From Candidatus Thiothrix anitrata (lineage in GTDB: Bacteria; Pseudomonadota; Gammaproteobacteria; Thiotrichales; Thiotrichaceae), in assembly GCF_017901155.1 (NCBI RefSeq), contig NZ_CP072800.1, positions 3,065,283 through 3,129,282 of the forward strand: a stretch of 64,000 nucleotides of DNA. Direction: 5' to 3'. The translations under genes and the position numbers were made by a program. Below are positions 22,789-47,797 of this stretch, piece after piece. The notes under the pieces are model-generated. The model searched no databases, had not been told where the DNA came from, and worked only from the letters and a program-made list of their open reading frames with translations. Within the stretch, counting starts at the first letter, position 1; the number at the start of each line of letters is the position of its first letter.

Positions 22789-24696
22789 TCAGCTTGCGAG
22801 TGTTGGCAACCGCTTACCGGGGGCAACACTTTCTAACGACTGATGAATAGCCCGTTGGTTGCTGCTGTCATTTTTGCCAAACCACTTAAACCCTTTATCT
22901 TCGCTATACGCCTCTTGTCCATTTTTTGAGTCAAATGGGTAACACACAGGAATCTGTGTAGGTACATTGTTGAGATTGGCAAGCCAACATAATTCTTTTA
23001 GTGCTTTGGCATTGATTAGGCTGGTATCAAGTTGTTTTGACCATGTTTGATAACGCTCACCCTGCAAACCTAGACGTGAATAACGCTGCTGGCGATTAAT
23101 CGTTTCCACATCAGCTTCAAGTTGCACATGCCCAAGACCCAATGGCTTGCCTAGACCCAGCCGATGCACAAAGGTACTACTTGCTTCTGCGGGTTGTAAC
23201 GCGGTCAACAACAAACCCAGTTCTGCTTCACTCAAGTTTTCAAAGTGAACATAAAAACGCAATTCCACTTGAGCAGGGATAGGCTGGCAGCGCAGGTGCA
23301 TGTGAGGACGGTAGTCTTTATCCCCAGTTTCCCGCTGTGTTTCCCAGTCATTGCGTGGTAACTCAAAGAGTGAACGGGGGTGTGGCAGATACTGCTTGCG
23401 CCCGTTAGGCGTGTTGCTACCCAAATCAAGGTCGGTTTTGGCAACATACCGCCCATGACCGCTGAAATACAGCGCAGGCGATGGCGGTTTGGGAGAGTTA
23501 AGGATTTTTAAGATAACCGCATCTTGCAACTCAATCGGCTGGGTAACAATGGCATCGGTAAAACGTACTCGTGATGCCAGATTACGCGCACCGCCGCGTT
23601 TCTTTTCATCCGGTTGGTCTTCCACAACGCCAAACAAGGCTTCGGCTGGGGTGAGGGCATCCCGCTCAGCATTCCAGGGTAGACTGTTGATCCCCGCCGT
23701 TTTCTTGAACGCACCATGCAGATCACCGGGTATGGCTTTGCGCCAGATGGAGGAGTAGCTGATTTCTATCACTTCACCATTGGTTTCTCGGTAATACAAC
23801 AAGTCGCCATCCAATACCAAAGGCTTGTCATCCTTGACTTCCCAGCCACGCGGCTGGTTAGCATAACCTTTGGGTAACATTTGCTCGGATTTGGTTGCAC
23901 GATCTTTGGGATCTTTAATCGTGGCGTATAGTGTGCGCAGGATAGTTTCCAGTACTGTTACCCCATTAGACTTGATGGGCAACAGTTTGCCATCATCAAT
24001 TTTGCCATTCCACGGCAGGTAATATTCACGTCGTTTGCCCAGTTGTTTGTTTTCACCGCGTATGTGGTAAATGCCCGATGCGTGCGAACCGTAACTGTGA
24101 AATTGGCTATTATGATGACGCTGATAGCAATCATGTTTTCTCAAAAATTGAGTTTCTTTGTTGTCTTTCGTTTGATAATCCCCGACAGGGATAGCTTTAT
24201 TGTCTTCATCTGCCAATGGGTAAATGGCAAAACGACCATCAGCTTGTTTGCATAGCAAGCCAAGCTTTTTCAGGGGAGCATCTTCAATGCCCGCATTTTC
24301 AGCTTGTGCGGGTTTTCTGACCGAGTATTCCCCATTTTCCGCTTGTATCAGCACCCGCAAGCTGGATTGGCTGATGGTTTCGGCGATATTACCTACCATC
24401 CCTCGCAAACTGTTGCCGGGAATCGCTGGATTACCATCACGGTCACGGTAGGGTGTGACACTGCCCGGAACTCCCTTGTCTTTATTACTCGCCTGTTGTT
24501 CAGCACCCACCACCAGCGGACTGAGTGTTTTCAGTGTGCAGGTAATGCGCCCGGACAACCCATCTTTATGCCAGTAATCGTGACGAATAAAACGGTTTTC
24601 TACCCGTTCCAACCCATCCAGTGTTTTCCACTCATCGGTTTTGGTTTTACGGGTGTCGACCCGGATAAACTGATAAGGGTGATGGAATTCTGTCAT
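22789..24696 (-). CDS. Type III RAMP protein, TIGR03986-like (multi-domain Cas7 type)
   Basis: 635 residues from the ATG at 24696, overlapping the previous stop by four bases. The N-terminus has a RAMP signature: LSGRITCTLKTLSPLVVG followed by GNPAIPGNSLRGMVGNIAE (about 90-108). The C-terminal half has a second RAMP-like part with AELRF-type strands and a glycine-rich loop VHRLGLGKPLGLGHVQLEA (about 530-548). The arrangement matches what is called the TIGR03986 family in my memory. It is a presumed backbone subunit of the effector complex that binds crRNA. Exact subtype assignment is uncertain. Confidence 0.8.
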   Translation of the reverse strand: MTEFHHPYQFIRVDTRKTKTDEWKTLDGLERVENRFIRHDYWHKDGLSGRITCTLKTLSPLVVGAEQQASNKDKGVPGSVTPYRDRDGNPAIPGNSLRGMVGNIAETISQSSLRVLIQAENGEYSVRKPAQAENAGIEDAPLKKLGLLCKQADGRFAIYPLADEDNKAIPVGDYQTKDNKETQFLRKHDCYQRHHNSQFHSYGSHASGIYHIRGENKQLGKRREYYLPWNGKIDDGKLLPIKSNGVTVLETILRTLYATIKDPKDRATKSEQMLPKGYANQPRGWEVKDDKPLVLDGDLLYYRETNGEVIEISYSSIWRKAIPGDLHGAFKKTAGINSLPWNAERDALTPAEALFGVVEDQPDEKKRGGARNLASRVRFTDAIVTQPIELQDAVILKILNSPKPPSPALYFSGHGRYVAKTDLDLGSNTPNGRKQYLPHPRSLFELPRNDWETQRETGDKDYRPHMHLRCQPIPAQVELRFYVHFENLSEAELGLLLTALQPAEASSTFVHRLGLGKPLGLGHVQLEADVETINRQQRYSRLGLQGERYQTWSKQLDTSLINAKALKELCWLANLNNVPTQIPVCYPFDSKNGQEAYSEDKGFKWFGKNDSSNQRAIHQSLESVAPGKRLPTLAS

Positions 24697-26111
24697 GCTG
24701 CTTGCTCCTGTGTCATCACGCCCAATTGTTGCAACAACTCGTTTTCCCATTGCTGCAAGGTCTCATCGTCTAGCTTTGTCAGCCAAGCATTCCAGCCGCC
24801 GTGTTCAGATACCAGCCGTACCCGCCCATAGCCCTTGCTTTTGCCCCAGCCCAGCACTAAATCACCTTCTTGTGCATCCCGCCATGCAAACAGTAATAGC
24901 AACTGCATCCAGCCGGTTAGCTTGTCTTTGCGGTAAGCGATGCGCCCGCTGAACATTTCCCTGACCCACAATGCCCTGACTTTATACAAAGCTGAATCTT
25001 TGACCCCACCTGTGAAACGGTCAACCGCATTGAAGGTTTGCCAATGTTTGTCATCTTCGGTAAACGCTACTGTCGCATCGTAAAAACGCACATGCCCTTC
25101 ACCATCAGTGCTGCCAAACAGTTGCTTAAGCAATACGTCTACGTTCTGGTCATGGGTTTCTTGAGCCAACGTTAGCAGGATGCGGCGGCAATGCGCCCGA
25201 AACCAACCTTTGAGGGTAGACCCCGGAATCAGTGCGTATTCACCTCTCACCATGAAAGCATGATTAGGTAGAGATTTCCTGTCATCCGACTTTGCGTCGC
25301 TGGAATACTTCTTGAGTACATCCGGGTCATGTGGGTTGTTAATCAGTATCGGCGACTCAGGCTGCAAGCCAAAAGTTTCCTCTACCCATTCCCCACTGCG
25401 GATACCCGTCACCGTTAAAGCCGCAAGGTTATCCAGTGGAATAGGTTTGAAGCTGCTAGTGAGTGGCGTAGCATTTGGTCTGCCAACCCAAGAACAGAAA
25501 TCAACCTCACTCAGCCCCAGCACACTAACGGATTTCCAGCGCAGGCAACCCTGACCACTGCTTTTGCCTTTGCCTAATTGTCCACTAGGTTGTTCGCCAA
25601 AGGATTGCAACGCGAGCAGCAGCGTAGCAATGTCTTGCTCCGTGATTGGGGTGCGTTGGTTGCCTTCCAGCATTATTTCCACGTCAAACACACTGCCAAC
25701 CGGAACAGCTTCGTGAGTGGCAAGGTGGTGGCGTTTAGCTGTTCCGCTGACAGCATCAATACTGGTTCGACTGATCTTTGCCCTGTCTCCACCTGATGTT
25801 TTGAGTCGGGCATCATATACCCGCACAATACCTGCTTGCCCTTGTGCGATAGCATCGCTTGCTTGCCGTGCATCTCCAAACAGGAAAGCACGGGTATTGT
25901 CGTCTACGCTCAGGCTGCGCAAATAACCACGCAGTGTTGAAGCAGGGATATAAGGTTTTTTGTCTACATCCAGCAGCAAGGTATTGAATGAAAAAATTTC
26001 TTCCTTGTTGGTAGGGGTGGCACGGGTATAGGTGGCTTCATCCCCCGTGCCAATGTGCAGTTCTGAACAGGTAGTGAGGGTTCCGCTAAGGGTTACACGA
26101 CGATAGCTCAT
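24693..26111 (-). CDS. Type III RAMP protein with two Csm3/Cas7-like domains
   Basis: 472 residues. Two tandem RAMP modules: the first with SELHIGTGDE and YIPASTLRGYLRSL (about 16-65), the second with ALIPGSTLKGWFRAHCRR (about 293-310) and the glycine-rich LGWGKSKGYGRVRL near the C-terminus. DGEGHVRFYDATVAF between them resembles the Csm3 segment containing the target-RNA cleavage aspartate, and VRVYDARLK is its counterpart in domain 1. So both domains could carry a slicing aspartate. It overlaps both neighbours by four bases. Confidence 0.82.
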   Translation of the reverse strand: MSYRRVTLSGTLTTCSELHIGTGDEATYTRATPTNKEEIFSFNTLLLDVDKKPYIPASTLRGYLRSLSVDDNTRAFLFGDARQASDAIAQGQAGIVRVYDARLKTSGGDRAKISRTSIDAVSGTAKRHHLATHEAVPVGSVFDVEIMLEGNQRTPITEQDIATLLLALQSFGEQPSGQLGKGKSSGQGCLRWKSVSVLGLSEVDFCSWVGRPNATPLTSSFKPIPLDNLAALTVTGIRSGEWVEETFGLQPESPILINNPHDPDVLKKYSSDAKSDDRKSLPNHAFMVRGEYALIPGSTLKGWFRAHCRRILLTLAQETHDQNVDVLLKQLFGSTDGEGHVRFYDATVAFTEDDKHWQTFNAVDRFTGGVKDSALYKVRALWVREMFSGRIAYRKDKLTGWMQLLLLFAWRDAQEGDLVLGWGKSKGYGRVRLVSEHGGWNAWLTKLDDETLQQWENELLQQLGVMTQEQAA

Positions 26112-27916
26112 GCGTTGTCACCTCCGTTTTGCAATGGGCGTTCGGTTTGAGCAGACCAGTTAATACAAATTTCCCCAAAACCGTGTTCAGGTAGATAGGG
26201 AGTATCCTTCCACGTCGCAGGCTGACCCTTTGCCTCCGTATAGGTAGGTAAACCTGTCTGCATCCATTGTTGAAGTTTCTCCAGACCTGCATTGGTTTCC
26301 ACGGTGAGGACAAACACACTTCCGGCAACCGTCAACCATTCCGGGGCATAAGCATCCTGATTCTGGAAATGTCGGTGCTGATAAGCACCACCCCGGCGTT
26401 TTTGTTGAGCAAAATGGCGTTGTAAGCTCAAACCATTCTCTGCAACACTTTCCCAATAAGCCGCATACAAGGAATGCAGGATGCTGTCTGATTGCGTTCC
26501 AGCTCTCCATTGATTCGCCAATACCTGTTCGAGATGTGCAGGCAACAAAAGGGCATCACTCATCAGTGTGACTATTGCTGTCTCACCGATTTGTGGTGTT
26601 GCTCCATGCGGTGTGGCAAATGCTTGCGGGTAAACGTCCACTTGTGCATAAGCTTTGGTTTTGCCGATACCGTCCAACCCTTGTTGCAGGCAAGCCACCA
26701 AGTTTTTCAGCACTTGCGGGCGGCGTTCATCAGCAACCAAGCTCAAATCAACATTGCCGTACCAAGCAAAATCATGCGGGTCAACACACTCCACACTAAA
26801 CAGGCGACCCTCTTCAGCCGTACCGCTATCACGGGAAATTTCTGTCCTAACCAGCAGCAGGCGTTCGGGGTAGGCAGGGCTTAGACCACAGTCCTCGCTT
26901 GCCTTACTCCAGTCTGCATCTTTCCAGTCTGGTTGGAAGGCAGGGATGTCTTGCCAGACAAAATCTTGTGGTTTATCCAAACCCGACATATCCACCAGCT
27001 TACCCTGATAAAACGCAAGGCTCAGCGGTAGCGACGGTTGGCGTGTTGCGGTTTTGGCAGGCAGGGCATGGCTAAAGACCAGTTGGTCAAAGCACAACGC
27101 ATCTTCTCGCTCCTGTTCGCTGGCATATTGCTTAGCAATGACTGCTTTGATCACATTGCCACTGATGAACTCGTCAGACACGACTCGGTTGCTGTCCGGT
27201 GTGCGTGGTTTGCCAATACAGAAGGGGCGATCCAAGTGAAGGCTGATACCGAAGCGAACAGTATTTGCCGGTAATGAGATGGGCGTTTTCTTTCCAGTCG
27301 CAGTCATTGATGCTGGTTTGAGTTCGGCTTTCAATAACCGACCATAACCAATACCTTTCAGACTCCCCATTGCCGGGATAAAGCTAAGCGTTTTGTTAAT
27401 CCATTTCTCGAACCGTTGGCGTTCTTCCTGATCTTTGAACGTGGCGCGTAATTTTCCGCTAAATACGGGTTTGGTTCCTGTGGGGAAACAGTCTTCAATC
27501 GTCTGCAACGCACCCGATTCGACACTTCCCTGTTCACCCAATTGAATACGGGTGCGATGCCCACCTTGAAAATCCTTGCCTTGCAACAGCCAGAACAGAT
27601 CAAAACGAACATTACCCCGTTGTGGTTCCATGTTGCTTTCACTGGATGGTTTCCCAAACCAGTCCAAACTGGCATTGAGCAGAGACTGACTTTTGTTCTC
27701 TGGCAAGGCTTCGACAAGCTGCCCCAAATAATCGCGGATATTTCCCCGAACCAGACTGCCATTGATAGCGGGTTGTTCACGGTAACGCTGCATAGCCGTG
27801 TCCACGCCAAGCCTGAGCGTACCAGACTGTTGTGACAGCAATGGCCCGGCAAATGTTAGACGTAACTCGTATACAATGTTTTGGACAGGGTTTGTCTTGG
27901 GTTTTTTATTACTCAT
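26108..27916 (-). CDS. Large type III RAMP protein (Cas7-like plus Csx10/Cas5-like regions)
   Basis: 602 residues. The first domain has a RAMP N-terminus (LRLTFAGPLLSQQSGTLRLG, AINGSLVRGNIRDYLG) and the glycine-rich GSLKGIGYGRLLKAEL (about 188-203). A second begins VRFGISLHLDRPFCIGKPR, with the LDGIGKTKAYAQVDV loop near 420. The C-terminus has PYLPEHGFGEICINW, which resembles the glycine-rich ending of Csx10 (type III-D Cas5-like). The division into Cas7 and Csx10-like parts is inference from these motifs. Starts overlap stops by four bases on both sides. Confidence 0.7.
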   Translation of the reverse strand: MSNKKPKTNPVQNIVYELRLTFAGPLLSQQSGTLRLGVDTAMQRYREQPAINGSLVRGNIRDYLGQLVEALPENKSQSLLNASLDWFGKPSSESNMEPQRGNVRFDLFWLLQGKDFQGGHRTRIQLGEQGSVESGALQTIEDCFPTGTKPVFSGKLRATFKDQEERQRFEKWINKTLSFIPAMGSLKGIGYGRLLKAELKPASMTATGKKTPISLPANTVRFGISLHLDRPFCIGKPRTPDSNRVVSDEFISGNVIKAVIAKQYASEQEREDALCFDQLVFSHALPAKTATRQPSLPLSLAFYQGKLVDMSGLDKPQDFVWQDIPAFQPDWKDADWSKASEDCGLSPAYPERLLLVRTEISRDSGTAEEGRLFSVECVDPHDFAWYGNVDLSLVADERRPQVLKNLVACLQQGLDGIGKTKAYAQVDVYPQAFATPHGATPQIGETAIVTLMSDALLLPAHLEQVLANQWRAGTQSDSILHSLYAAYWESVAENGLSLQRHFAQQKRRGGAYQHRHFQNQDAYAPEWLTVAGSVFVLTVETNAGLEKLQQWMQTGLPTYTEAKGQPATWKDTPYLPEHGFGEICINWSAQTERPLQNGGDNA

Positions 27917-29559
27917 GGCTTAGCCCCCTTGGCAGGTATCAGGTAGTCCCACAGTTCCAGCAAATGTAACCAACACCAAGCGCGTTCTTCCGCCTTATCC
28001 ATGTCCAAGGCAAATAACTGTTCAATCATGACAGGAAGCTCTTGCTCGACAGTTGTCCTGTTTGCACCGTCCAAGGTACGCAACATCTGGAACTCTGCCT
28101 GTTCCTGAAGACTGGCTTCTTGGATAGATTCTTGCGTGGCATCACATAAGCCATTCCAATCCAGCGTTCCCTGTGGTTCGTTACTATTAAACGTGTCAAC
28201 GATGCGGTAAAGCTGGCGAATCGGTAACATGCCATCCCCCAATAAGCGGTGCAAACTGGCCTCGGCTACTTGCCAATTTGGAGCGGCTGGGTGTCCGGCT
28301 GGGCGTGATTGCTGGAGAGCCATACCGTAGCGTTTCCCAAAATAAGCATCCAGATCATCACGGGTTGGGTAATCGACCGATTCCAACACCAGATAATCCC
28401 AGCCATCTTTGTCCCTCCCGTACTTGTCCTTTACCCGTTCTGCCAATTTGCGGGCAAGGTTTTGGATAATACGTATCGGGGTTTTCGCTTTGCAGAATAC
28501 AACTCCCGCTGCATGGGTGAATTGCTCCTGCTGCTGGTCATCCAGCTCCCATAAACGGGTATGTGTAAAGAACTGTTGCAAAAAGCTGGTTCCTAACCAT
28601 GCGGGTAAGACAAACAGCATTTCATCGCCGCCCCAGAGTAATGTTTCCAGACGAATTGCGGGAAAGTTTCCACCACCGTCTTCTTCATCTTCACTGAAAC
28701 GTGTCACTGCATCGGGTAATTTGCCGTCCAGCATTTTGGTTATGATGTCCTCCAAGAACTGGTTGCGCCAAGTCTGGATACAATCATCAAAGGCTTGCTG
28801 TGCGGCAATACCATCTGTTTTGGCATCAATCGCTTTTTGTAGGTAGCTGTCTTGACGTTTGCCGAAGCCATTCCCATCAATATAGATGACAGCCATTTTA
28901 CCATTGAGATTGCCGTAGGCTGGGTTTTCACAGAGTGTTTCAATATCAGGCACAAAACGGTACTCCGCCAGCCTGTTTTGCAAGTCATCGCTCAATCCAT
29001 TCAGATAATAATCCTGTTTCTGCTGCCGCCCGTATTCACGGCGTTGAAAAACAGACAGGGATAAGTGGCGTTTGGGCTTATCCAGCGTCGCTTGGACTTT
29101 GCGTTGTGTGCGGTTAGCCGCAATACGGATACCTTCCAGTTCGCATGGCTCATCCCGGCTGGTGTGTTTGCCTTCAAATACATCAGGGGTAAGTGTCAAA
29201 GCGCGTAACTGGCGGAAATGCAATTGTGCCCATAGCTGCCGTTTGGCTTGCAAGATGTCCCCAGCTTGACAATGTTCCACCAGAAAAGTCAGGTGGCGAA
29301 ACTGCGGATGAGTCCGCAAGCTCTGCGTCACAGCTTCAGCAATACCCTCGATAGCTTTCGTTGAAGCTATTTTCAGGCAGAACAACCCAGACGATGCCCC
29401 CGTAGAAACGGGTTCTAAATACTCCGTAAACTCTTTTTGGATATGCGTGACCGCATCCTTATACAAAAAGCTGCTGCCACGAATCACACTGAGTTGGTCA
29501 GTGTCGTAGATATTGGCGTAGAGGTTGACCCCTTCCACCAACAGAAAATGATGCCCCAT
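27913..29559 (-). CDS. cas10: Cas10, small form without HD nuclease domain
   Basis: 548 residues, short for Cas10. The N-terminal region has a palm-like start with DTDQLSVIRGSSFLYKDA (about 20-36). The catalytic palm has YIDGNGFGK (226-234) and WGGDEMLFVLP (309-319), the equivalent of the GGDD cyclase motif with GGDE instead. No HD nuclease motif is seen at the N-terminus, so it probably does not cut single-stranded DNA. It could make a cyclic oligoadenylate or another nucleotide signal upon target RNA binding. It lies next to a SLATT membrane gene, which is a candidate receiver of that signal. Confidence 0.88.
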   Translation of the reverse strand: MGHHFLLVEGVNLYANIYDTDQLSVIRGSSFLYKDAVTHIQKEFTEYLEPVSTGASSGLFCLKIASTKAIEGIAEAVTQSLRTHPQFRHLTFLVEHCQAGDILQAKRQLWAQLHFRQLRALTLTPDVFEGKHTSRDEPCELEGIRIAANRTQRKVQATLDKPKRHLSLSVFQRREYGRQQKQDYYLNGLSDDLQNRLAEYRFVPDIETLCENPAYGNLNGKMAVIYIDGNGFGKRQDSYLQKAIDAKTDGIAAQQAFDDCIQTWRNQFLEDIITKMLDGKLPDAVTRFSEDEEDGGGNFPAIRLETLLWGGDEMLFVLPAWLGTSFLQQFFTHTRLWELDDQQQEQFTHAAGVVFCKAKTPIRIIQNLARKLAERVKDKYGRDKDGWDYLVLESVDYPTRDDLDAYFGKRYGMALQQSRPAGHPAAPNWQVAEASLHRLLGDGMLPIRQLYRIVDTFNSNEPQGTLDWNGLCDATQESIQEASLQEQAEFQMLRTLDGANRTTVEQELPVMIEQLFALDMDKAEERAWCWLHLLELWDYLIPAKGAKP

Positions 29560-30104: not shown

Positions 30105-31043
30105 TTATGTATCCAGTAAAACCCGTTGCAACTCATAACGCCCCAACCCCATGTTGGTACTTTTACCCGTGTGCAACCATTGTCCAAGGTATAAGTATGA
30201 CCAAAAGTCCGCCAAATTTCCGCCTTGTAAAAAAATATCACCCAACCAACCCCGCACTGGCTGTTCCCGCTGTTGGCGTGAGGAGTAACGCTGCCAGCCA
30301 CCCGACCAAACATTGGCTTTATGACGGATATGAGGTGCTTGATGCTTGAGTTCACTGAAATCCGCAGCCAATGGCGCATCGGTGTAAAACTGATGTAGCA
30401 AGGAAACGCGCCGCACCACACCCATCAAAAAGCGTTCCACCACAAAGCTGTCGCCGTGATCGCCAAGGTTAACGGGGGTAATAAAGTGAATACGGGCGGA
30501 AGTCGCCGGTTCAGGGCAAATCACCGCTTCCAAGGGGGCTGCACGGAAGAAAATATCATCAGCGTAAATCACACTGGCATTGCCACTCACTGGCAATTGC
30601 ACGACTTCTTGCAACATTGCCCGACCATAGCCCTTACCCAAACCACCCTGCCCCGCTAGTTGCATGGCTTCAATGATCGGGCGTACATAATGATTCGCGT
30701 GTGCCACCAACAACAGTTTGACGGAAAACCAATCGCCGGGGTTGAGCCGACGTGCTTGCTGGCGTTGCACTCGAAACACATAAGGCACGGGAAAAGTGGC
30801 AATGGTTTTTAAAATACCTGCGTCTTCGCGCACTTCCGGCATTTGTGGCTCGAAAATTCGTGCATACAAGCAATCATCGGTATGGGGTTCTTGCCCACAG
30901 CAATGCAGGTGGCGCAACGCATGACCGAATGCACCGCGCCATAACGAACCTGTAAACTCAGGAAAATCAATAACATCTACCGCTCTAAACAAAAAACGGT
31001 ATTCAGCGAACGTGAGTCTGGATGCGGTGGTTTCAGCAAGCAT
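30105..31043 (-). CDS. cas6: Cas6 endoribonuclease (stand-alone)
   Basis: 312 residues from the ATG at 31043 (an upstream TTG at 31049 is less likely). The N-terminus FTGSLWRGAFGHALRHLHCC and the later DCLYARIFEP are typical of one Cas6 group, and the protein ends with GQWLHTGKSTNMGLGRYEL, the glycine-rich loop. Cas6 cuts the pre-crRNA within repeats. It is distinct from the Cas6-like domain of the RT-Cas1 fusion, so the two Cas6 domains may each match one of the two repeat types. First gene of the minus-strand run SLATT-cas10-RAMPs-cas2-RT-cas1. Confidence 0.85.
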   Translation of the reverse strand: MLAETTASRLTFAEYRFLFRAVDVIDFPEFTGSLWRGAFGHALRHLHCCGQEPHTDDCLYARIFEPQMPEVREDAGILKTIATFPVPYVFRVQRQQARRLNPGDWFSVKLLLVAHANHYVRPIIEAMQLAGQGGLGKGYGRAMLQEVVQLPVSGNASVIYADDIFFRAAPLEAVICPEPATSARIHFITPVNLGDHGDSFVVERFLMGVVRRVSLLHQFYTDAPLAADFSELKHQAPHIRHKANVWSGGWQRYSSRQQREQPVRGWLGDIFLQGGNLADFWSYLYLGQWLHTGKSTNMGLGRYELQRVLLDT

Positions 31044-31114
31044 CAACAACAGTCCAATAGGTGTTTAAGGGAGTGTAGCCGATGCGGCTTGTGAAAAAAA
31101 GCAGCTATTTGCAG

Positions 31115-31848: not shown

Positions 31849-34429
31849 AAAGTAACGCCTTCTAAATCAGGCTGCCATTCAAACTTGTGTTTGCAATTTT
31901 TGCAGCACTTGGATTCCAGTCTTAACGCCTTCTAAATCAGGCTGCCATTCAAACCAGATTACATGCTGTTACAGTTAGAGAAAGCAAGTCTTAATGCCTT
32001 CTAAATCAGGCTGCCATTCAAACTATAGCTATGTGCTTGAGCTCAACCTTGAGCATGTCTTAACGCCTTCTAAATCAGGCTGCCATTCACACTATGAATT
32101 TCTAGGAAAAGGTACGGGCGACACCGTCTTAACGCCTTCTAAATCAGGCTGCCATTCAAACCTTATTGACTCACAGGTAGTTACTGGGCGTGAAGTCTTA
32201 ACGCCTTCTAAATCAGGCTGCCATTCAAACTCTCGTACCTTTTCTCTTGAAACAAGAAAAGGGTCTTAACGCCTTCTAAATCAGGCTGCCATTCAAACTC
32301 ATCTACAAAATTTAGAGAGCTAAAGCCAGTGTCTTAACGCCTTCTAAATCAGGCTGCCATTCAAACAATCGTAACAGGCTTCTATCTTTAGTTATAAGTC
32401 TTAACGCCTTCTAAATCAGGCTGCCATTCAAACCAATACCAGACTTTAAAAGGTATTATAAGCCCTGTCTTAACGCCTTCTAAATCAGGCTGCCATTCAA
32501 ACACAGTGGCTCAGTCGTTGCCTGCTAAGGCAACCGTGTCTTAACGCCTTCTAAATCAGGCTGCCATTCAAACCCTAATAAGGTGAGAGTGAGTTTTTTG
32601 TCACTGGTCTTAACGCCTTCTAAATCAGGCTGCCATTCAAACTCATCTACAAAATTTAGAGAGCTAAAGCCAGTGTCTTAACGCCTTCTAAATCAGGCTG
32701 CCATTCAAACAATCGTAACAGGCTTCTATCTTTAGTTATAAGTCTTAACGCCTTCTAAATCAGGCTGCCATTCAAACCAATACCAGACTTTAAAAGGTAT
32801 TATAAGCCCTGTCTTAACGCCTTCTAAATCAGGCTGCCATTCAAACACAGTGGCTCAGTCGTTGCCTGCTAAGGCAACCGTGTCTTAACGCCTTCTAAAT
32901 CAGGCTGCCATTCAAACGCTGTTTCGGCCTGTGGCCTCGCGACGCCTTTGTCTTAACGCCTTCTAAATCAGGCTGCCATTCAAACGCTGCCATTGCGGCT
33001 GCTGCAACTGAGGCTGAGTCTTAACGCCTTCTAAATCAGGCTGCCATTCAAACATGACGTTCTTAGTAATCCTAGGTTGTATCCTGTCTTAACGCCTTCT
33101 AAATCAGGCTGCCATTCAAACCAACTCAAAAATCTTAGTTGTTTATTTTGGCATGTCTTAACGCCTTCTAAATCAGGCTGCCATTCAAACAAAAAACATC
33201 AACTCAAAAATCTTAGTTGTTTAGTCTTAACGCCTTCTAAATCAGGCTGCCATTCAAACCCTTCCTTCGGGAATGGTATTTTTCGCAATGTCGTCTTAAC
33301 GCCTTCTAAATCAGGCTGCCATTCAAACGGTCAATTGCCGCTTTTGCATCAAGCAATTCCTGTCTTAACGCCTTCTAAATCAGGCTGCCATTCAAACGAT
33401 ATTGCCGCCTTGTTGCGACAAAACGAGTCGTCTTAACGCCTTCTAAATCAGGCTGCCATTCAAACTCATAGCCGCCTTGTGACCGGCGCAACACCAAAGT
33501 CTTAACGCCTTCTAAATCAGGCTGCCATTCAAACCGGCATGAGCACTATCAGAGTCGTGCGCGGGTGTCTTAACGCCTTCTAAATCAGGCTGCCATTCAA
33601 ACTGCTTGCCCTTGCTTATCAATCGCAACATAGGTCTTAACGCCTTCTAAATCAGGCTGCCATTCAAACACTCGAACAAGGCTATCATGTCGAAGGATCG
33701 ACACGTCTTAACGCCTTCTAAATCAGGCTGCCATTCAAACAAAAAGACGCGGAAGCCAAGGGCGTAGACCTGTTCGTCTTAACGCCTTCTAAATCAGGCT
33801 GCCATTCAAACCAAACGTTGCCGCTGCTCGCGCATGGATTGACAGTCTTAACGCCTTCTAAATCAGGCTGCCATTCAAACCGGCGAATCGGCGATCCCAG
33901 TGCCGTCGATGGTCTTAACGCCTTCTAAATCAGGCTGCCATTCAAACCTATACGCGCTATAGAGGCCGGTTACGTCAGGGTCTTAACGCCTTCTAAATCA
34001 GGCTGCCATTCAAACGCAGCGCGGGCAAGCCGCCACCGCCGCCGCGCCGGTCTTAACGCCTTCTAAATCAGGCTGCCATTCAAACGCGCACAACACTTTA
34101 TTCTGACACCTCTAAAAAGTCTTAACGCCTTCTAAATCAGGCTGCCATTCAAACCTATCGCCGCGCCACGACCGCGAAGACATTTGGTCTTAACGCCTTC
34201 TAAATCAGGCTGCCATTCAAACATCTCTAGCAGAAGTAGCGGTTGTATTTGTGGGTCTTAACGCCTTCTAAATCAGGCTGCCATTCAAACATATGCCTAG
34301 CTACTATCTGGGTAATTCGGTTTCTGTCTTAACGCCTTCTAAATCAGGCTGCCATTCAAACCCAAAACCGCCAACGGTTGCCTGCTGCTCACCGTCTTAA
34401 CGCCTTCTAAATCAGGCTGCCATTCAAAC
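31849..34429 (-). CRISPR. CRISPR array 2: 38 repeats of 36 bp, 37 spacers
   Basis: Plus-strand repeats begin GTCTTAACGCC and end CCATTCAAAC. Starts run from 31849 (degenerate in its first four bases) and 31919 to 34394. The third repeat (31988) has a T for C, and the fourth ends CACAC. Variation concentrated at the left marks the trailer end, so the leader is on the right beside the RT gene and transcription is leftward; in that sense repeats start GTTTGAATGG and end GTTAAGAC. Spacers are about 31-36 bp. Four consecutive spacers are present twice (32299-32537 and 32643-32881). Two spacers overlap each other by 24 bases (33122-33154 and 33191-33223). Confidence 0.97.
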
Positions 34430-34541
34430 CGCGGATGTCGAAAATTTCTGTTTAGGATCAATAGCTTGCAAGGCACTTTTTTCTATATCAAAAGGGATAG
34501 ATCGAGTTAGCCCGATAAGACCATGAAAACCGTATGGGTTT
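34430..34541 (-). promoter_or_regulatory. Putative leader of array 2
   Basis: 112 bases between the last repeat and the stop of the stand-alone RT. It is at the end opposite the degenerate repeat and next to the adaptation genes, so it should contain the array promoter. A minus-strand open frame crosses it by chance; I see no gene and no certain promoter. Confidence 0.5.
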
Positions 34542-35387
34542 TCACTGCTTCGGATTCGGCAAGCGTTCCCCAAGGAACACCAATTCAGGGCTGGAACGCG
34601 CCACACGGGTTTTCCCGCTATGCAATTCCAAATCCAGTTTTGCCAAAATGCCACGAACATGATCCAGTGCCTTCTCCGCTAATGCCTTGCTTGATGTAAA
34701 CAACAGAAAATCATCTGCATACCGCACAAACGGTATATTAGCCTTTTCCAGCGCAATGTCAAAATCGTGCAAGTACAAATTACACATCAGCGGCGACAAA
34801 ATCGCCCCTTGCGAAATCCCACGGTCACTCCCCAACAAACTGGTGTGGTGCGCACCCTGTTTCAGCCACAAATCTATGATTTTCAATAAAGCACGGTCAT
34901 CCACAAACCCTTTGAGCTTTTTCTTCAACGGTGTCTGCGGAATTTGGTCAAAGAAACTGCGGATGTCTGCATCCACCAGCCAATCAAGCCCACAACCAAT
35001 TCGCTCCCGCGCCTTTTTCAACGCATCATAAACACCCCGGTTAGGGCGATAAGCGTAACTGTCGGCATGGAACAAGCGTTCTGCCTTCGGCTCCAGCACA
35101 ATCAAAATCGCCCGTTGCAGCAGCTTATCCCGCAAGTATTGCGCCGAGATCACCCGTTTGCTTCCATCCGTTTTGGGCACAGTGAATTGGCGCAATGGCT
35201 CAGGGCGGTAACGGTTGCTCCGCAAATCCTCCAGCAGCCGCAAAATATGCCGCAGCAAATGTTGCTCCAACTGGTCACGGTCAACCCCCTTTGACCAGGG
35301 CGTATGTTCCGTGCGAACCCGCCGCCACGCCTCATCCATCACATCCGGGTGTAGCACCTGTTCCAACACTTCGTCTTTACCCAGCAT
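34542..35387 (-). CDS. Stand-alone CRISPR-associated reverse transcriptase with intact YADD
   Basis: 281 residues. Palm and finger motifs: LRQFTVPKTDGSKRVISAQY, motif A DADIRSFFDQIP, motif B GISQGAILSPLMCNLYL and motif C FVRYADDFLLFT. It ends shortly after FLGERLPNPK and has no maturase or endonuclease domain, so it is not a complete group II intron protein. The ATG at 35387 overlaps the cas1 stop by 11 bases, so RT and Cas1 act here as separate chains of what is a fusion in other systems. It probably makes cDNA from RNA during spacer capture from transcripts. Confidence 0.9.
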   Translation of the reverse strand: MLGKDEVLEQVLHPDVMDEAWRRVRTEHTPWSKGVDRDQLEQHLLRHILRLLEDLRSNRYRPEPLRQFTVPKTDGSKRVISAQYLRDKLLQRAILIVLEPKAERLFHADSYAYRPNRGVYDALKKARERIGCGLDWLVDADIRSFFDQIPQTPLKKKLKGFVDDRALLKIIDLWLKQGAHHTSLLGSDRGISQGAILSPLMCNLYLHDFDIALEKANIPFVRYADDFLLFTSSKALAEKALDHVRGILAKLDLELHSGKTRVARSSPELVFLGERLPNPKQ

Positions 35388-36363
35388 CTTTCACCTCCTC
35401 CAGCACCTGCCGCAACAACCGCAATTGCCCACGTACCTGCTCCTGCAACGGTGCAGTTTCCAACTGCCCACCACGATTGCCAGCCAAAGGGCGAGGCCAG
35501 TTATCGCGGTAAATAGCCCATTCCCGATAAAACAACGGTCTTGCCGCCTTGCTCAAACGGCAACCTTCCGACTCCCGGTAATAGAACGATTCCGGGGTCA
35601 GTTCCGCCAACAGGTTGAGTGCAAACAAATCAACCCCACTACGGAAAATCTCCAGCACATCCAACGCTAACGCCTCCCGCGCCGGATAAGGCTGGTGCAA
35701 AAACCCAAATGCTGGGTCAAACCCTTCCGCAATTACCATCTGGCGAATGTCCGCCAATGCCAAGGTATACCCCAGCGACAACAACGCATTCAGAGGATCA
35801 CGCGGCGGCTGACGGTTACGCCCAGTAAATTTCCACTGTTCCGGCAACACCGCCGCCAATAGCTGAAACCACTCACGGGACATGATTCCCTCAAGCCCCA
35901 GAAATACATCTACACTCTGTGCCTGATGCAGCTTGCCCAATTGTTGCTGCTGGGTTTCCCGAAAACGACCCGCAAGCACACTATCAAGATGCGGCTCTAA
36001 TACTAGAAAAGGCAACTGATAGCTCAACACCTTGCGCACCAACACCCAGCGGGCAAGCTGCACCGCCAGCACATCGCTTTCCGCACACGCATATTGCAGC
36101 CGTCGGGCTGGCAATTGTGTTGCCAACCCTTCCGCCAATAACGCCGTCGTTTGCATCCCGCGTGAAGCAAGGATGACAGCAGGAACGCCCGCTTGTGCCA
36201 ATGCCCGCCACACACTGCTTTCCACCAGCGGGTTGCCATACACCACCAGCATTTCCAGCAAGTTGGTGGCAGCACGTTGCAGCAGGCTTTCCCCGTGATA
36301 AACCTGCACCACGCCATCCACCAAACGCACCGTCAATTCACTGCGGTCGAGTACCATTAACAT
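35377..36363 (-). CDS. cas1: Cas1 integrase (module B)
   Basis: 328 residues from the ATG at 36363, directly after the cas2 stop. Catalytic residues visible: Glu in GLEGIMSREWF, His in FGFLHQPYPA and Asp/Glu in ALDVLEIFR. GRNRQPPRDPLNALLSLGYT is the Cas1 core and is very similar to the matching part of the fused Cas1 of module A (GRNRRPPRDPFNVLLSLGYT), so the two are paralogues. It works with the two following or preceding Cas2 proteins and the RT. Confidence 0.95.
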   Translation of the reverse strand: MLMVLDRSELTVRLVDGVVQVYHGESLLQRAATNLLEMLVVYGNPLVESSVWRALAQAGVPAVILASRGMQTTALLAEGLATQLPARRLQYACAESDVLAVQLARWVLVRKVLSYQLPFLVLEPHLDSVLAGRFRETQQQQLGKLHQAQSVDVFLGLEGIMSREWFQLLAAVLPEQWKFTGRNRQPPRDPLNALLSLGYTLALADIRQMVIAEGFDPAFGFLHQPYPAREALALDVLEIFRSGVDLFALNLLAELTPESFYYRESEGCRLSKAARPLFYREWAIYRDNWPRPLAGNRGGQLETAPLQEQVRGQLRLLRQVLEEVKDAG

Positions 36364-36365
36364 GC

Positions 36366-36698
36366 TCACCTCCCAAACAGATTCCGAATCCGTTGCAGCA
36401 CCGTGACACTGGCTGTGCCTGTTTCCTTGCCCGCAAACAGCCCTGACATCGTGGCCTGCTGACAGCCCGCCATCCACATATCGTTGGGATGCCGTAGCGG
36501 ATAAATCCGCACGTCATCTTCCCGCGTATGGGTGCGATCTTTGACAATCGCCAAGATAGTCTTGAGCTTCGCTGCATCCGCATGAACCAGAAACACCGAC
36601 TCCTGCATCGGCAACGCCTTCTTTTTCAGGGCGTAATGCAGACGGCTTAAGCGTTTCGGGTCACGCACGTCATACGCCAACAAGTACCACTGTTTCAT
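36366..36698 (-). CDS. cas2: Cas2 (module B, first of a tandem pair)
   Basis: 110 residues from the ATG at 36698. MKQWYLLAYDVRDPKRLSRL has the Cas2 beta-1 aspartate, and MQESVFLVHAD the second strand. DVRIYPL precedes an extension of about 35 residues that is not usual for Cas2 and ends in a basic helix (RIRNLFGR). It overlaps the other Cas2 by four bases and lies two bases from cas1. Confidence 0.9.
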   Translation of the reverse strand: MKQWYLLAYDVRDPKRLSRLHYALKKKALPMQESVFLVHADAAKLKTILAIVKDRTHTREDDVRIYPLRHPNDMWMAGCQQATMSGLFAGKETGTASVTVLQRIRNLFGR

Positions 36699-36982
36699 GC
36701 TGCCACGTACCACACAGGTTGGAGGAAACCGATGCTGGCAGCCTGCGTCAGGGCTTGGGCATCCCGCCCCGCATCCAGCCACATCAGCAACAACTTATCG
36801 GTTTCCGGGTCAATGATTTCGGTGAGTTGCATGAACAGTTCCTTGGCTTCAAAACTGGAGAGCTGGCATTCAAACACCGAATACTGGCTATCCAGCCGCC
36901 ATGCTTGCAGGCGGCGGTGAACTTGCCGCCTGCGTTTGTTGGAACTGATGTCATAAGCAATCACCGCCGCACGGCGTTTCAT
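36695..36982 (-). CDS. cas2: Cas2 (module B, second of a tandem pair)
   Basis: 95 residues. MKRRAAVIAYDISSNKRRRQ has the beta-1 aspartate, and DSQYSVFECQLSS is the second conserved strand; TDKLLLMWLD follows. Sequence is clearly different from its neighbour at 36366-36698, so this is not a recent duplication. The two could form a heterodimer. It starts three bases after the stop of the periplasmic coiled-coil gene, so it is in the same operon as the membrane cassette. Confidence 0.9.
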   Translation of the reverse strand: MKRRAAVIAYDISSNKRRRQVHRRLQAWRLDSQYSVFECQLSSFEAKELFMQLTEIIDPETDKLLLMWLDAGRDAQALTQAASIGFLQPVWYVAA

Positions 36983-36985
36983 GCT

Positions 36986-37768
36986 TTACCCCCCGCCACC
37001 GGAAAACAGACGGCTGAACCAGCCGGAAGGTTTCGCAGGGCTGTCGGCAGTAACGGGAGCAGGCAACGAATTGCAATCCGCCAGCAAGTTGCTGACATCT
37101 GCTTCAGTACCGGGCTGCTGTTCCTTGAGCAACACCTCGCCCAACAGTTCCTCCAAGGTTTCCGTTGGAGCGGTCTCCAGCAATTCATCACCTGCTTTAG
37201 CAGCAATGCAGGCGGTTTGTACAAAACGCTCCGCTTCCGGCACTGTGCCGCCCATGCCTTGTAAGGGGCGGGCTTGTTGTTCCAGTACCGCCAACTCGTT
37301 GTACTTGGCGGACATCGCGGTAGCTAATGCCTGTTGTTCGGCAATTCGCTGCTGCAAGGTTTGCTCCACTTTGTGTTGCGCTTGATACAACCCCAGATTC
37401 AAACGCAATTGCGCCCGGAACTGCTCCACATCCTGCAAGCTGACTGCCCCGTATTGCAGCGGGTAAGGGGCATCACGCCCATTGCGGCACAATTGGCTGG
37501 TATCGTCATACAAGCGTTGCTTTTCAAGCTGGATTTTCTGCATCAACCGGGTACGGTTGGCTTCCACATCCAGCTTCATCCGGGTAGCCGCGTCCTGTAA
37601 GTCCTTTTGCAAACTATCCAATGCATCGGTGGCTTTATTCACCCGGTCAGATAACTTCATTTCCACAAAGGGAACCCAAGTGCCGCTGCACCAATCGGCG
37701 TGGGCGGGGAACGTCACGGACAACAATGCAGTGGCAATCACTGCTCGGCATGTGATGTTGGTTTTCAT
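36986..37768 (-). CDS. Unknown exported coiled-coil protein, operonic with cas2-cas2-cas1-RT
   Basis: 260 residues. A signal peptide (about 1-24, ATALLSVTFPAHA) predicts export to the periplasm. The mature part begins DWCSGTWVPF and has four cysteines spread over the protein (for example SQLCRNGRD and QTACIAAK), fitting disulfide bonds. Long helical regions (about 40-80 and 115-165) look coiled-coil; the tail is Gly-rich (GWFSRLFSGGGG). A strong ribosome site (AGGAGGTG) precedes the ATG. Three bases separate it from cas2. I do not recognise the family. Confidence 0.7.
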   Translation of the reverse strand: MKTNITCRAVIATALLSVTFPAHADWCSGTWVPFVEMKLSDRVNKATDALDSLQKDLQDAATRMKLDVEANRTRLMQKIQLEKQRLYDDTSQLCRNGRDAPYPLQYGAVSLQDVEQFRAQLRLNLGLYQAQHKVEQTLQQRIAEQQALATAMSAKYNELAVLEQQARPLQGMGGTVPEAERFVQTACIAAKAGDELLETAPTETLEELLGEVLLKEQQPGTEADVSNLLADCNSLPAPVTADSPAKPSGWFSRLFSGGGG

Positions 37769-37778
37769 CTTGCACCTC

Positions 37779-38315
37779 CTATCGGCTTACTTGGCTGTGG
37801 AAAATCGCTTTGAAGTCATCCATCAGGGCATCCAGAGTGTCCATGAAATCGTCGATGGACTTTTCCAACCGCTCCTGTTCGCGACGTTGCAAATGGCTGC
37901 TTTGGTAGCTGTCCAGTTTCTGCAAACGCTGGTCAACCCCGTGGTTGAACTTCTCTGCCAACCCATCCATTTGCTGCTGCAACTCCACCAATTGGTTGGC
38001 AAAAAAGCTGTTGCGCTCGCGCCGGTATTGCGCCTTGCCCGTCACCAGCACATGGTTGCAATGTTCCTCCATTGCTTGCAGGCGGGTATCCAATGCCATG
38101 CTCAAGGCTTGTTGGCGGTATTTAAAACCTTGGCGTAATTCATCAATAACATTGCTCTGTACCACTTGACGTTGTTCTCGTCGCATCAAAAAGGAAGGCT
38201 CGTCACCGTGTTTCTCAATCGCCCGGATAGTCAATAACTCATGATTTTTGCCAATCGGGTTTGCATCCAGCGGCAAGTTACGGTTCAAGCTGCTGTGTTT
38301 GATAGTCTCGTTCAT
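37779..38315 (-). CDS. Unknown coiled-coil protein of the cas2-linked cassette
   Basis: 178 residues, no signal peptide and no membrane helix. From about residue 60 it is almost all helical and rich in Gln, Glu and Arg (QLVELQQQMDGLAEKFNHGV, SSHLQRREQERLEKSIDDF), so it is probably a long cytoplasmic coiled coil that could join membrane partners. An upstream GAGGTG site supports the start. Ten bases separate it from the exported protein gene. Function unknown. Confidence 0.7.
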   Translation of the reverse strand: MNETIKHSSLNRNLPLDANPIGKNHELLTIRAIEKHGDEPSFLMRREQRQVVQSNVIDELRQGFKYRQQALSMALDTRLQAMEEHCNHVLVTGKAQYRRERNSFFANQLVELQQQMDGLAEKFNHGVDQRLQKLDSYQSSHLQRREQERLEKSIDDFMDTLDALMDDFKAIFHSQVSR

Positions 38316-38359
38316 ATTGCACCTCGTTGGTTTCAGGGGTTGGTATCGGGGTTGAGTTA

Positions 38360-39229
38360 TCAGGCTTTAAAAATGCCCTCCTCAACATAAGTCTTGGCTT
38401 TTTCTACCGTTTGCCCTGCCTTGCGGCGAATAGCATCCAGTGCTGCCTCATGTTGAATGTCTTGAATATCCTGCTCACCTTGCAAATTGGTTTTAAGCAT
38501 TTCCTGCTGTAAGCCATGCGCAAGTTTCATTCTCAATAATGGAGCCAAAGCCACGACGGTATTTTCAAAAGCCACCATAATTCCTAACTCAATCAGCACT
38601 GCCAGTAGTAAGGAAAAGGCAAAAATGAACTGCGAAGCAGTCGGTACACCAATCGCCACAAAAGACTCCAATGCCGCAAGAAAAGAGCGCACCATTTTAT
38701 TGTCCGAATTTGGGTCATCCAGTAATAATGGTACGGCTGCTTTTTTGGTTTCTTCCTCTTGTCGGATACTGGTTTCAGCTACATGGAATGCGTTATTGCG
38801 TTCCTCACTATAACGGCGCAAATCCTGTTGCTGCCGCTCTTGCAACTGGAGTAATGTTGACCGTAATTTGTCTTGACGGTCTTGTAATTCCAGATAACGT
38901 TTCCCTTTGAATTCACCGTTGACACGGTTATCCATTTCACGGGTTAGTAATTCATCCAACGCCTTGATCTGTTTTTCTAACTGCTCCCGCTCATAAGCTT
39001 GATTACGGGTAAAGTCACTGCGCTCCGTTTCCAGCTTGCCTTTCAACTCCCGCACACGGTTTTCAGCTTGCTGCTGAATGGCTTGCTGTTTTTGTGTCTG
39101 CACCGCCAACTTGCTATCAATATTATTGGTATGTTCAGTCAATAACAGGGCAGCGGAGGCAATGGATAAGGCAATCAATCCCACACGAAATGAATGAGAG
39201 ATGATGCGTGTAGTTAATGGGTATTTCAT
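38360..39229 (-). CDS. Unknown membrane protein with long coiled coil
   Basis: 289 residues from the ATG at 39229, which overlaps the small upstream gene by four bases. TM1 near 15-33 (GLIALSIASAALLLT), a charged coiled-coil stretch (about 40-160, for example NRVRELKGKLETERSDFTRN), then a long hydrophobic segment near 200-232 (IFAFSLLLAVLIELGIMVAF) with a buried Glu and a helical tail. Topology suggests the coiled coil lies on one face of the inner membrane. Family not recognised. Confidence 0.7.
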   Translation of the reverse strand: MKYPLTTRIISHSFRVGLIALSIASAALLLTEHTNNIDSKLAVQTQKQQAIQQQAENRVRELKGKLETERSDFTRNQAYEREQLEKQIKALDELLTREMDNRVNGEFKGKRYLELQDRQDKLRSTLLQLQERQQQDLRRYSEERNNAFHVAETSIRQEEETKKAAVPLLLDDPNSDNKMVRSFLAALESFVAIGVPTASQFIFAFSLLLAVLIELGIMVAFENTVVALAPLLRMKLAHGLQQEMLKTNLQGEQDIQDIQHEAALDAIRRKAGQTVEKAKTYVEEGIFKA

Positions 39230-39438
39230 ACGGACTCCTCCTCCAGCTTCAAGAAACGATTCCAAATAATGGCGAGTGCCTTACTGACTTCTAAGGCAAT
39301 AGCAAGCACCGTGGCAACGGTGGCACTTTCCATGAAATTCTTTAAGACTTCGATTTGAACCCAGCACGAGAGAGAAAACAGCGTAATGCCGACAGTAATT
39401 TGGGCTACCCAGATGGTATGGAAGAAGAAACGGTGCAT
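39226..39438 (-). CDS. Small two-TM membrane protein heading the cas2-linked operon
   Basis: 70 residues with two predicted membrane helices (about 8-28 and 40-58, including ATVLAIALEVSKALAIIWNR with a Glu inside the helix). The ATG is preceded by a strong ribosome site (AAAGGAGGT). It is the first gene of a run that passes through three coiled-coil genes into cas2-cas2-cas1-RT with gaps of at most 44 bases. Function unknown. Confidence 0.7.
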   Translation of the reverse strand: MHRFFFHTIWVAQITVGITLFSLSCWVQIEVLKNFMESATVATVLAIALEVSKALAIIWNRFLKLEEESV

Positions 39439-39634
39439 GGCGTGACCTCCTTTAGTTTATCCAGCAGCTGTCACCTTAAGGCATTGACAATGTATGAATA
39501 GACTAAAATGATCAGCAAAAAATGTCAACATTCGACAATTACATAATGTATGAAAAAACGATTGACTCTAATGAATATCATCCAATACACTAATGTCAAT
39601 CTCTTACCATGACTCAGTAAAGGGGGGAATTGCC
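39439..39634. promoter_or_regulatory. Divergent promoter region between the cassette and the four-TM gene
   Basis: AT-rich. On the plus strand TTGACT (39562-39567) and TACACT (39586-39591) with 18-base spacing form a sigma-70-like promoter for the gene at 39635. On the minus strand TTGACA (39528-39523) and TAGTCT (39505-39500) with 17-base spacing could serve the cassette. The ten-base word AATGTATGAA occurs twice (39489 and 39545), and an inverted TGTC-N7-GACA lies at 39523-39537. These look like operator sites for a shared regulator. Confidence 0.45.
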
Positions 39635-40117
39635 ATGAAACAGCAAATATTGTTTCTCACGTTATCCACTATCTCCAGCACGTTATTCTTGGGTGTATTT
39701 GGGTATATTGGCTGGGAGGCTCTATACGCAGTGTTTGCGTCTAAAACCAAGGCGAGCATCGCAATCCTAATTCTACTGCTTGAGGGAGCCATGATCCTGT
39801 GGTTGCGGTTTATGTGCAGTAAGCTGATTGATTGCAGAAAATTTGTGGATTGGTTGACGGGGATTTTTCTGCTACTGATCGTGGTGCTGTGTCTGGTTGA
39901 CTCAACCCTGTTGATGACAGACCCAGAGGCATTGAACACCCCCTTCTACAGCACACTAAATGCCCTATTATTTGCCTGTCTGCTCATCATTGGTTTCTTG
40001 CTGGCGTGGGAAAGTCTTAACGTAACATTCAACTGGCTGCGCGGCACGGATGAACTTGTAGCAAAACCAACTGCCCCTGCCATCGAACAAAAATACGGGA
40101 AAACAGGTTACAATTAA
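39635..40117 (+). CDS. Unknown four-TM membrane protein divergent from the cassette
   Basis: 160 residues from the ATG at 39635, preceded by AGGGGGGAA; an upstream in-frame start at 39593 would overlap the promoter. Four hydrophobic segments (about 5-30, 38-58, 72-95, 112-138). The second, AILILLLEGAMILWLRF, has a Glu in mid-helix at a place similar to the small TM protein at 39226-39438 (LAIALEVSKALAIIWNRF). It is followed by a terminator at 40138. Function unknown; it may belong with the divergent membrane cassette. Confidence 0.65.
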   Translation: MKQQILFLTLSTISSTLFLGVFGYIGWEALYAVFASKTKASIAILILLLEGAMILWLRFMCSKLIDCRKFVDWLTGIFLLLIVVLCLVDSTLLMTDPEALNTPFYSTLNALLFACLLIIGFLLAWESLNVTFNWLRGTDELVAKPTAPAIEQKYGKTGYN

Positions 40118-40137: not shown

Positions 40138-40170
40138 AAAGCCGCTGCACCTCACACTGCTGCGGCTTTA
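40138..40170. terminator. Bidirectional hairpin terminator
   Basis: AAAGCCGC and GCGGCTTTA are inverted repeats around a 16-base loop, with A and T runs outside. It closes the plus-strand membrane gene and the convergent minus-strand gene, whose stop lies within the hairpin. Confidence 0.7.
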
Positions 40171-40886: not shown

Positions 40887-40970
40887 CCCCAAGCGGTAAC
40901 GTTCTGGAACAGATACCCCACTTAACGCCTATTTCTAGCGAAACACAGGGACTACAGAAAGTCAGCACTA

Positions 40971-46419: not shown

Positions 46420-46427
46420 ACTAGACC

Positions 46428-46625: not shown

Positions 46626-46730
46626 CGTTGTCACCAATAGGGTTAAGTCCCCCTAGTATAACAAGATTTATATGGTATACCGGGACTTCCACCCCGCTGG
46701 GTTTTGGATAAGCGACGACACCCCTGCCCT

Positions 46731-47124: not shown

Positions 47125-47245
47125 GGCGGCATCCTTTAGGGCTGACTGGAACGCCAAGTACGGGAATAGCACAACCGTGTTTTCCCGCCGCTCCAGTCAA
47201 GACAGCCGAGCACCATCCTAACTCGGCTTGGTGTTTCTGTTTTTA

Positions 47246-47400: not shown

Positions 47401-47427
47401 GTAACGCACAGATGTTTTTCAATGGAG

Positions 47428-47781: not shown

Positions 47782-47797
47782 CAGAACTCCAATATCG

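Follow-up and report, generated by a model that had tools for sequence, protein, structure and literature searches.

Gene content and layout of the locus

A CRISPR (clustered regularly interspaced short palindromic repeats) adaptation module accompanied by genes for a predicted membrane protein, m12, and a coiled-coil protein, cc3, is described here in Candidatus Thiothrix anitrata, a member of the same family as Leucothrix pacifica. The DNA analyzed, 64,000 nucleotides of the 3.55-Mb contig NZ_CP072800.1 (positions 3,065,283 to 3,129,282 of the forward strand), is referred to as the window, and coordinates given without a locus name are positions within it. Eight minus-strand open reading frames (ORFs) run head-to-tail from 39438 to 34542:

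39226..39438, minus strand, m1: N-terminal part of m12 with transmembrane (TM) segments TM1-TM2, split off (BLAST identity and two TM windows)
38360..39229, minus strand, m2: remainder of m12, with TM3, a coiled-coil hairpin with a conserved tip, TM4, and a predicted cytoplasmic tail (homologs, TM scan, and fold of a fused relative)
37779..38315, minus strand, cc3: soluble helical coiled-coil protein (alignment of 13 members, conservation, no TM window)
36986..37768, minus strand, ex4: putative exported helical protein (signal peptide by eye; one homolog)
36695..36982, minus strand, cas2a (Pfam CRISPR_Cas2, E 5.9e-15)
36366..36698, minus strand, cas2b (Pfam CRISPR_Cas2, E 1.8e-12, scanned as 36366-36704)
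35377..36363, minus strand, cas1 (Pfam Cas_Cas1, E 2.5e-52)
34542..35387, minus strand, reverse transcriptase (RT), unfused to Cas1 (Pfam RVT_1, E 5e-34)

The junctions between these genes measure, in order, -4 (ATGA), 44, 10, 3, -4 (ATGA), 2, and -11 bases, with cas2b starting at 36698, in the ATGA overlap with cas2a, and cas1 at 36363. The ORF positions, strand, and all seven junction lengths listed in an earlier note on this DNA agree with our reading of the sequence, and the operon-like layout that it proposed for the first four genes together with cas2-cas2-cas1-RT is borne out by gene order and junctions. The same note regarded the ribosome sites as strong; judged by eye, the first four genes are preceded by purine-rich sites, and the site of cas2a is weaker. 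A scan gave 4 promoter-like sites against 5.5 in shuffles, and 13 terminator-like sites, mostly intragenic, against 7.4, figures that carry no information on separate transcription starts. Both Cas2 genes exceed the Pfam cut-off. The RT contains YADD, and its best NCBIfam model is TIGR04416, group II intron RT, at 239.9 bits against a cut-off of 300. Among the RT-CRISPR clades of Toro 2018, clades 9 and 13, in which the RT is unfused to Cas1, are candidate placements for it.

By sequence comparison, the first four genes represent three families: m12 (split here), cc3, and the rare ex4. Aligned with the N-terminal ~65 residues of the fused m12 proteins of relatives, the m1 product shows 38-43% identity, and m1 plus m2 correspond to a single fused gene in all eight relatives that have a complete, unbroken copy. 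In the first three relatives found, L. pacifica and two Thiotrichaceae metagenome-assembled genomes, a fused m12 (365 and 373 codons; the third copy ends at a contig edge) is followed by cc3 and then by the cas genes. The break between m1 and m2 lies within the TM2-TM3 loop, predicted to be cytoplasmic; the two reading frames overlap by ATGA and little conserved sequence is lost, so the split looks like fission rather than decay. Of the four-gene assembly imagined earlier, m12 and cc3 remain as the core, the first two genes being one family and ex4 occurring in only two of the 14 loci described below.

Association of m12 and cc3 with adaptation genes

The cc3 family was searched for in 369 genomes of the class (five positive) and by a pattern scan of 84,980 genomes (12 loci), which reaches recognizable cc3 relatives only. 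After removal of seven duplicates and addition of three loci from the order scan, 14 distinct cc3 loci in 13 genomes were obtained, all of them gammaproteobacterial. The gene cas2a follows cc3 (or ex4) in 13 loci. Thirteen also contain cas1, which is partial in L006, and 12 each contain cas2b and RT, the contig of L024 stopping before the RT position. Upstream of cc3, m12 is found in 12 loci, and in all 12 the two genes lie with adaptation genes; in L008 and L018 the contig ends within m12, and in L025 a frame change breaks it. L024 has no m12 within the 466 upstream bases available. Chance adjacency is excluded, because the order cc3-cas2a (or cc3-ex4-cas2a) recurs in 12 further distinct loci. 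The module of L006 is degraded, with a short cas2a, no cas2b, a truncated cas1, and two small genes between m12 and cc3. The latter (L006:10760-11400) resemble a toxin-antitoxin pair, by appearance only.

Apart from the window's own genome, 3 of 62 genomes of the order and 4 of 368 in the class sample have m12 homologs. The m12 and cc3 profiles are positive in the identical five of 369 class genomes, every copy lying inside the module (Fisher p 1e-9 for the association, a value overstated by treating genomes as independent). Among 393 genomes of the phylum, the m12 search returned the window's own gene and two short coil matches, covering 39 and 64 positions of the profile at E-values of 3e-4 and 8e-4 and taken as noise. 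Carriers are found among sulfur bacteria and their relatives and include the named strains Leucothrix pacifica JCM 18388 and Thiocapsa imhoffii DSM 21303. The pair m12-cc3 is a conserved, adaptation-linked membrane part, and we consider its association with the adaptation module nearly certain. This is in agreement with the claim of the earlier note that membrane and exported parts are linked to adaptation genes; the occurrence of these genes mostly without cas genes or in conjugative elements, which the note had named as fatal to its proposal, is not the pattern seen, as cas2 accompanies all but one of the cc3 loci.

That the pair belongs to an unrelated island or to conjugative cargo merely abutting the cas genes is highly improbable. 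The region does resemble a mobile or defense island (a TraG-like gene, a zeta-like toxin gene, and tRNA-Leu), but against this stand the recurrence of the cc3-cas2a order in the further loci, the lack of any other m12 or cc3 match in the class sample, and, for m12 in the phylum sample, only the two short coil matches. Plasmids yielded no relative of m2, ex4, cc3, m12, or RT (RT at E 1e-60), phages none of cc3 or m12, and viral contigs none of ex4, cc3, or RT. The cargo explanation was rejected, the module being conserved without tra genes in the neighborhoods compared. At E 1e-3, BLAST found the window's TraG-like, zeta-like, 40152, and 40971 products to be absent from the compared m12/cc3 neighborhoods, several of which are contigs of 4-6 kb. 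It is also very unlikely that m12-cc3 forms part of a nucleic acid uptake or export route (competence, vesicle, or conjugation) feeding the integrase. The TraG-like gene 3.7 kb upstream and the apparent export of ex4 speak for such a route. Against it, the neighborhoods compared contain no homolog of the TraG-like and other upstream products, and conservation alongside the module was not observed for any channel, ATPase, or pilus gene.

The upstream genes themselves are 39593-40117 (membrane-like, opposite strand), 40152-40892, and 40971-42965; the last two, encoding 246 and 664 amino acids without family, were not found beside the module in relatives. Farther upstream, the stretch 43136-48195, comprising the TraG-like gene (matching the end of the TraG_N profile only), the zeta-toxin-like gene, and tRNA-Leu, is a possible remnant of an integrated element. 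A duplicated tRNA-Leu 3' end (att) was not found within the window.

The linkage is also reflected in sequence divergence. In 10 of the 14 loci, tested with 1000 permutations, m12 and cc3 distances track Cas1 and RT distances (r 0.62-0.67, reached by 0-1 permutations) and those of cas2b (r 0.51 for m12 and 0.54 for cc3, reached by 0 and 3 permutations, respectively). Third codon positions are the most variable in 18 of 18 gene comparisons, and the genes are therefore under constraint. The RT, at E 1e-60 or better, is present in 8 of 369 class genomes, three of them without m12 and cc3. L048 has RT and an array, without cas1 or cas2 in the 14 kb covered.

Downstream of RT, the window contains the remaining parts of a CRISPR-Cas locus:

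31849..34430, no strand assigned, CRISPR array of 38 repeats of 36 nucleotides and 37 spacers of 31-35 nucleotides, following RT
30105..31049, minus strand, cas6 (Pfam CRISPR_Cas6, E 4.9e-12; PADLOC Cas6, E 2.8e-76)
22789..29559, minus strand, type III-D-like effector genes, Csm3/Cas7-like, Csm4-like, and Cas10-like (PADLOC matches)

Thus Cas1, Cas2, RT, an adjacent array, and type III effectors, the components by which an RT-associated adaptation module is recognized, occur together in this locus, and the type III-D-like set is a possible user of the array. Changed repeats at the far end of the array place its leader on the RT side. A tandem duplication within the array, at 32262-32905, repeats four spacers; here 300 bases recur identically, offset by 344 bases. 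Similar repeats lie beside RT or cas2a in L007, L019, L026, L048, and L050; none at three or more copies was found in L025. A single plasmid match of the array (71% identity, 12% of the query, in three pieces), located in an intergenic stretch, perhaps reflects related repeats. It lies at 9843-10648 of the Methylocaldum szegediense plasmid NZ_OX458334.1 (L053), in whose incomplete gene table no cas gene appears. Homologs of cas6 are present in L006, L025, L026, and L049.

A Cas6-RT-Cas1 fusion (19582-22575), a Cas2 match belonging to it (about 22554-22766), and a separate array of ~30 repeats (17289-19361) make up a second RT adaptation module in the window, located across one III-D-like effector set from the first. 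Genome-wide, Cas2 gives 6 matches and Cas1 gives 5, one of the latter partial. At another cas locus, G000:C1:1832223-1834496, Cas2 is matched twice and Cas1 once in full and once in part.

Predicted properties of the proteins

Four TM segments are predicted in m12 by hydropathy. To the product of 38360-39229 the earlier note had wrongly assigned a single TM segment; two are predicted, at residues 13-31 and 201-219. In all six complete fused m12 proteins scanned, the TM2-TM3 loop has 3-6 K/R against 0-3 D/E, so that, according to the positive-inside rule, this loop and the C-terminus would be cytoplasmic and the long TM3-TM4 segment periplasmic. The AlphaFold2 model of Leucothrix m12 has a mean predicted local distance difference test (pLDDT) score of 82.4 and consists of helices 2-36, 40-65, and 74-103, an antiparallel coiled-coil hairpin whose arms (108-171 and 184-244) are joined by a short strand turn, and a final helix, 275-361. 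The pLDDT of the hairpin is mostly 91-97, and 70-85 around the turn; its length, by arithmetic from the 64-residue helix, is ~96 Å, i.e., about 100 Å. Conservation in the family peaks at the hairpin turn, in a stretch of 12 residues (170-181; EMNNVVNGTFKG in Leucothrix) that is followed by the conserved R183 and Y184.

The cc3 protein has no TM segment by hydropathy scan. Alignment of its 13 members reveals a conserved core motif, ELxxGF...ExCNxxLVxGKxxxRxxR, with conserved residues L60, G63, F64, R67, E84, C86, N87, G93, K94, R98, and R101. The one known homolog of ex4 (L024:1072-1845; 30% identity over 258 residues, E 8.5e-33) occupies the equivalent slot, between cc3 and cas2a, and four cysteines (window residues 27, 94, 187, and 232) are identical in both members. 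The hydropathy scan at its threshold flagged no segment in ex4, the signal peptide having been read by eye. A two-member ex4 profile matched its own genome alone among 62 genomes of the order and 335 of the class.

None of the four products belongs to a cas family known to us, as the earlier note had already supposed: no Pfam or NCBIfam match exceeds the curated cut-off (for cc3, the NCBIfam scan covered the window's member only), and PADLOC and PHROGs yield weak, coil-type matches. Across family members, the weak matches of m12 are to HpsJ (1 of 13 members, E 9e-4), LeoBC (2 of 13, E 6e-5), and LmuB (1 of 13); for cc3, ZorA and DruG (3 of 13 each, E 2e-4) and SIKE (2 of 9, E 1e-4). The LMBR1 match of the window's m2 (E 0.02) is below its cut-off. 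DUF4407, a look-alike with a TM hairpin and a TM-coil-TM arrangement, is not among the matches at E <=1 for nine m12 members (as PF14362), and had no member over the cut-off in 25 genomes screened as a profile source. Likewise, MotA_ExbB is not among the Pfam matches listed for nine m12 members. A sequence search of solved structures gave best E-values of 0.034 for m12 and 0.14 for cc3, that is, coil noise, and fold comparison of the m12 model retrieved common helical arrangements only. Zorya ZorA was considered for cc3 and rejected, since the window match spans positions 360-474 of the 780-position profile, outside the MotA/ExbB-like motor domain.

Possible functions and relation to known systems

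The function that we favor, at about even chances, is that m12-cc3 tethers or gates spacer capture at the inner membrane. In this scheme the inner membrane would anchor m12, the hairpin and conserved tip projecting into the periplasm and the C-terminal helix lying in the cytoplasm, and cc3 would bridge the cytoplasmic tail of m12 and the Cas2a/Cas2b-Cas1-RT integrase. At the membrane, the site where phage nucleic acid enters and its first transcripts appear, the assembly might then hold or activate the capture complex, and such placement could lead to early capture of fragments. In some loci ex4 may serve as a periplasmic ligand or cap for the hairpin. Of all observations, the peak of conservation at the hairpin turn of m12 points most strongly to an extracytoplasmic sensing or binding role. 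A more elaborate form of this scheme, an envelope-coupled machine in which the m12 tip senses phage contact or nucleic acid entry and cc3 licenses capture by RT-Cas1-Cas2-Cas2 at the entry site, is conceivable and rather doubtful.

The same genetic evidence is shared by a sequestering regulator, in which m12-cc3 would keep Cas1-Cas2-RT inactive at the membrane and free it upon envelope stress, limiting self-acquisition, with the place of capture being irrelevant. The conserved turn, if periplasmic, suggests a ligand for it, but no present evidence separates such a regulator from the tether, and we regard it as quite unlikely. Unlikely as well is a membrane effector or fail-safe, forming a pore or depolarizing the membrane when the adaptation complex signals infection or miscapture, similar to type III and VI-B effectors but wired to adaptation. 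Acidic residues conserved in TM2 and TM4 of m12 (E51 and E291, Leucothrix numbering) would suit this role, membrane proteins are known CRISPR effectors in the parts of PMC12669027 consulted, and the window itself has a CorA-like and a SLATT-type membrane effector. On the other hand, m12 matches no CARF-type sensor in Pfam and PADLOC scans, two adaptation modules do without m12-cc3, and BLAST detected no homolog of the window effectors beside the module in L007 (15 kb) and L025 (13 kb), other effector subtypes not having been searched. The CorA-like protein (15606-17240; PADLOC CorA, E 4e-71) is a membrane effector type known from type III loci, and the SLATT-type two-TM effector (29578-30093; PADLOC 2TM effector, E 2e-63) lies beside the Cas10-like gene.

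Several observations weigh against the tethering of spacer capture by m12-cc3. The main reason for caution is that the pair is missing from two related modules, L049 and L050, which have cas2a-cas2b-cas1-RT; m12 and cc3 are thus not required for integration itself. The RT tree groups L049 with L019 (98/96) and these two with L031 (97/94), and L019 and L031 are carriers; the Cas1 tree unites both of these carriers with L049 and L050 in one clade (100/100). L049 is therefore nested among carriers, which looks like loss of m12-cc3; the RT of L050 forms a long branch, and its placement is unsure. Judged from these sequences, m12-cc3 looks like an accessory dispensable to the integrase. In L028, cc3 is present without a cas gene downstream, on a contig beginning 191 bases upstream. 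Type III effector-like genes near the module in L015, L019, L026, and L031 indicate that the linkage is not to adaptation alone. Distances to cas2a are weakly correlated for m12 (r 0.34, reached by 87 of 1000 permutations) and moderately for cc3 (r 0.48, reached by 18), and the spacers of the window array have no match among 50,697 phage records. As to topology, the putative periplasmic placement of the m12 hairpin rests on the positive-inside rule, and the charge sign is weak in the window's split m12 (4 K/R against 3 D/E around the split). A fifth TM window adjoins TM4 in three of six complete fused m12 proteins in the hydropathy scan. Finally, the Leucothrix model has a predicted template modeling score (pTM) of 0.50 and a pLDDT of 61-84 in its TM part.

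If m12-cc3 does tether or gate capture, it bears on how adaptation complexes meet invading nucleic acid early, and on how RT modules choose RNA. The linkage of m12-cc3 suggests that memory-making is tied to the cell envelope, and the m12 family, found in the searched samples only with one Cas2-Cas2-Cas1-RT lineage, provides a genetically testable handle. Possible relevance extends to transcript-recording tools based on RT-Cas1.

Among envelope defense proteins, ZorA of Zorya combines TM helices with a long coil. The resemblance of cc3 to it is confined to a weak coil match that avoids the N-terminal part of the model, with the best model matching 3 of 13 members, and no ZorB-like partner was seen. 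CorA, Csx28, and other CRISPR membrane effectors are likewise membrane proteins encoded in cas loci, but they act in interference after target recognition, whereas m12 and cc3 sit with adaptation genes. The portions of the 2025 classification consulted discuss membrane proteins as effectors (Makarova 2025, PMC12669027), and no description of an m12-cc3 module occurs in the consulted text of that paper or of PMC8102632, PMC9048733, and PMC5728499. In the accessible parts of Altae-Tran 2023 (PMC10910872), it is stated in general terms that transmembrane domain proteins can be linked with adaptation modules, and reverse transcriptase (RVT) is listed in the legend of Fig. 6B; those parts give no sequence, topology, or partner for such proteins. 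The m12-cc3 module may belong to these systems and is therefore not categorically new.

The closest relatives of the module as a whole are described in studies of RT-CRISPR loci, where, in the passages available, RTs are adjacent to Cas1 and variable ancillary genes occur (PMC5513706, PMC5541045, PMC6013744). A membrane pair like m12-cc3 is not named in those passages, and the legend of Fig. 2 in Silas gives unknown genes in grey. As far as these portions go, the RT-associated type III modules (Silas 2017; Toro 2017, 2018) likewise contain cas1, cas2, a group II intron-like RT, an array, and type III effectors; the module of the window differs from them in having its RT unfused to Cas1, two cas2 genes, and, in addition, m12-cc3.

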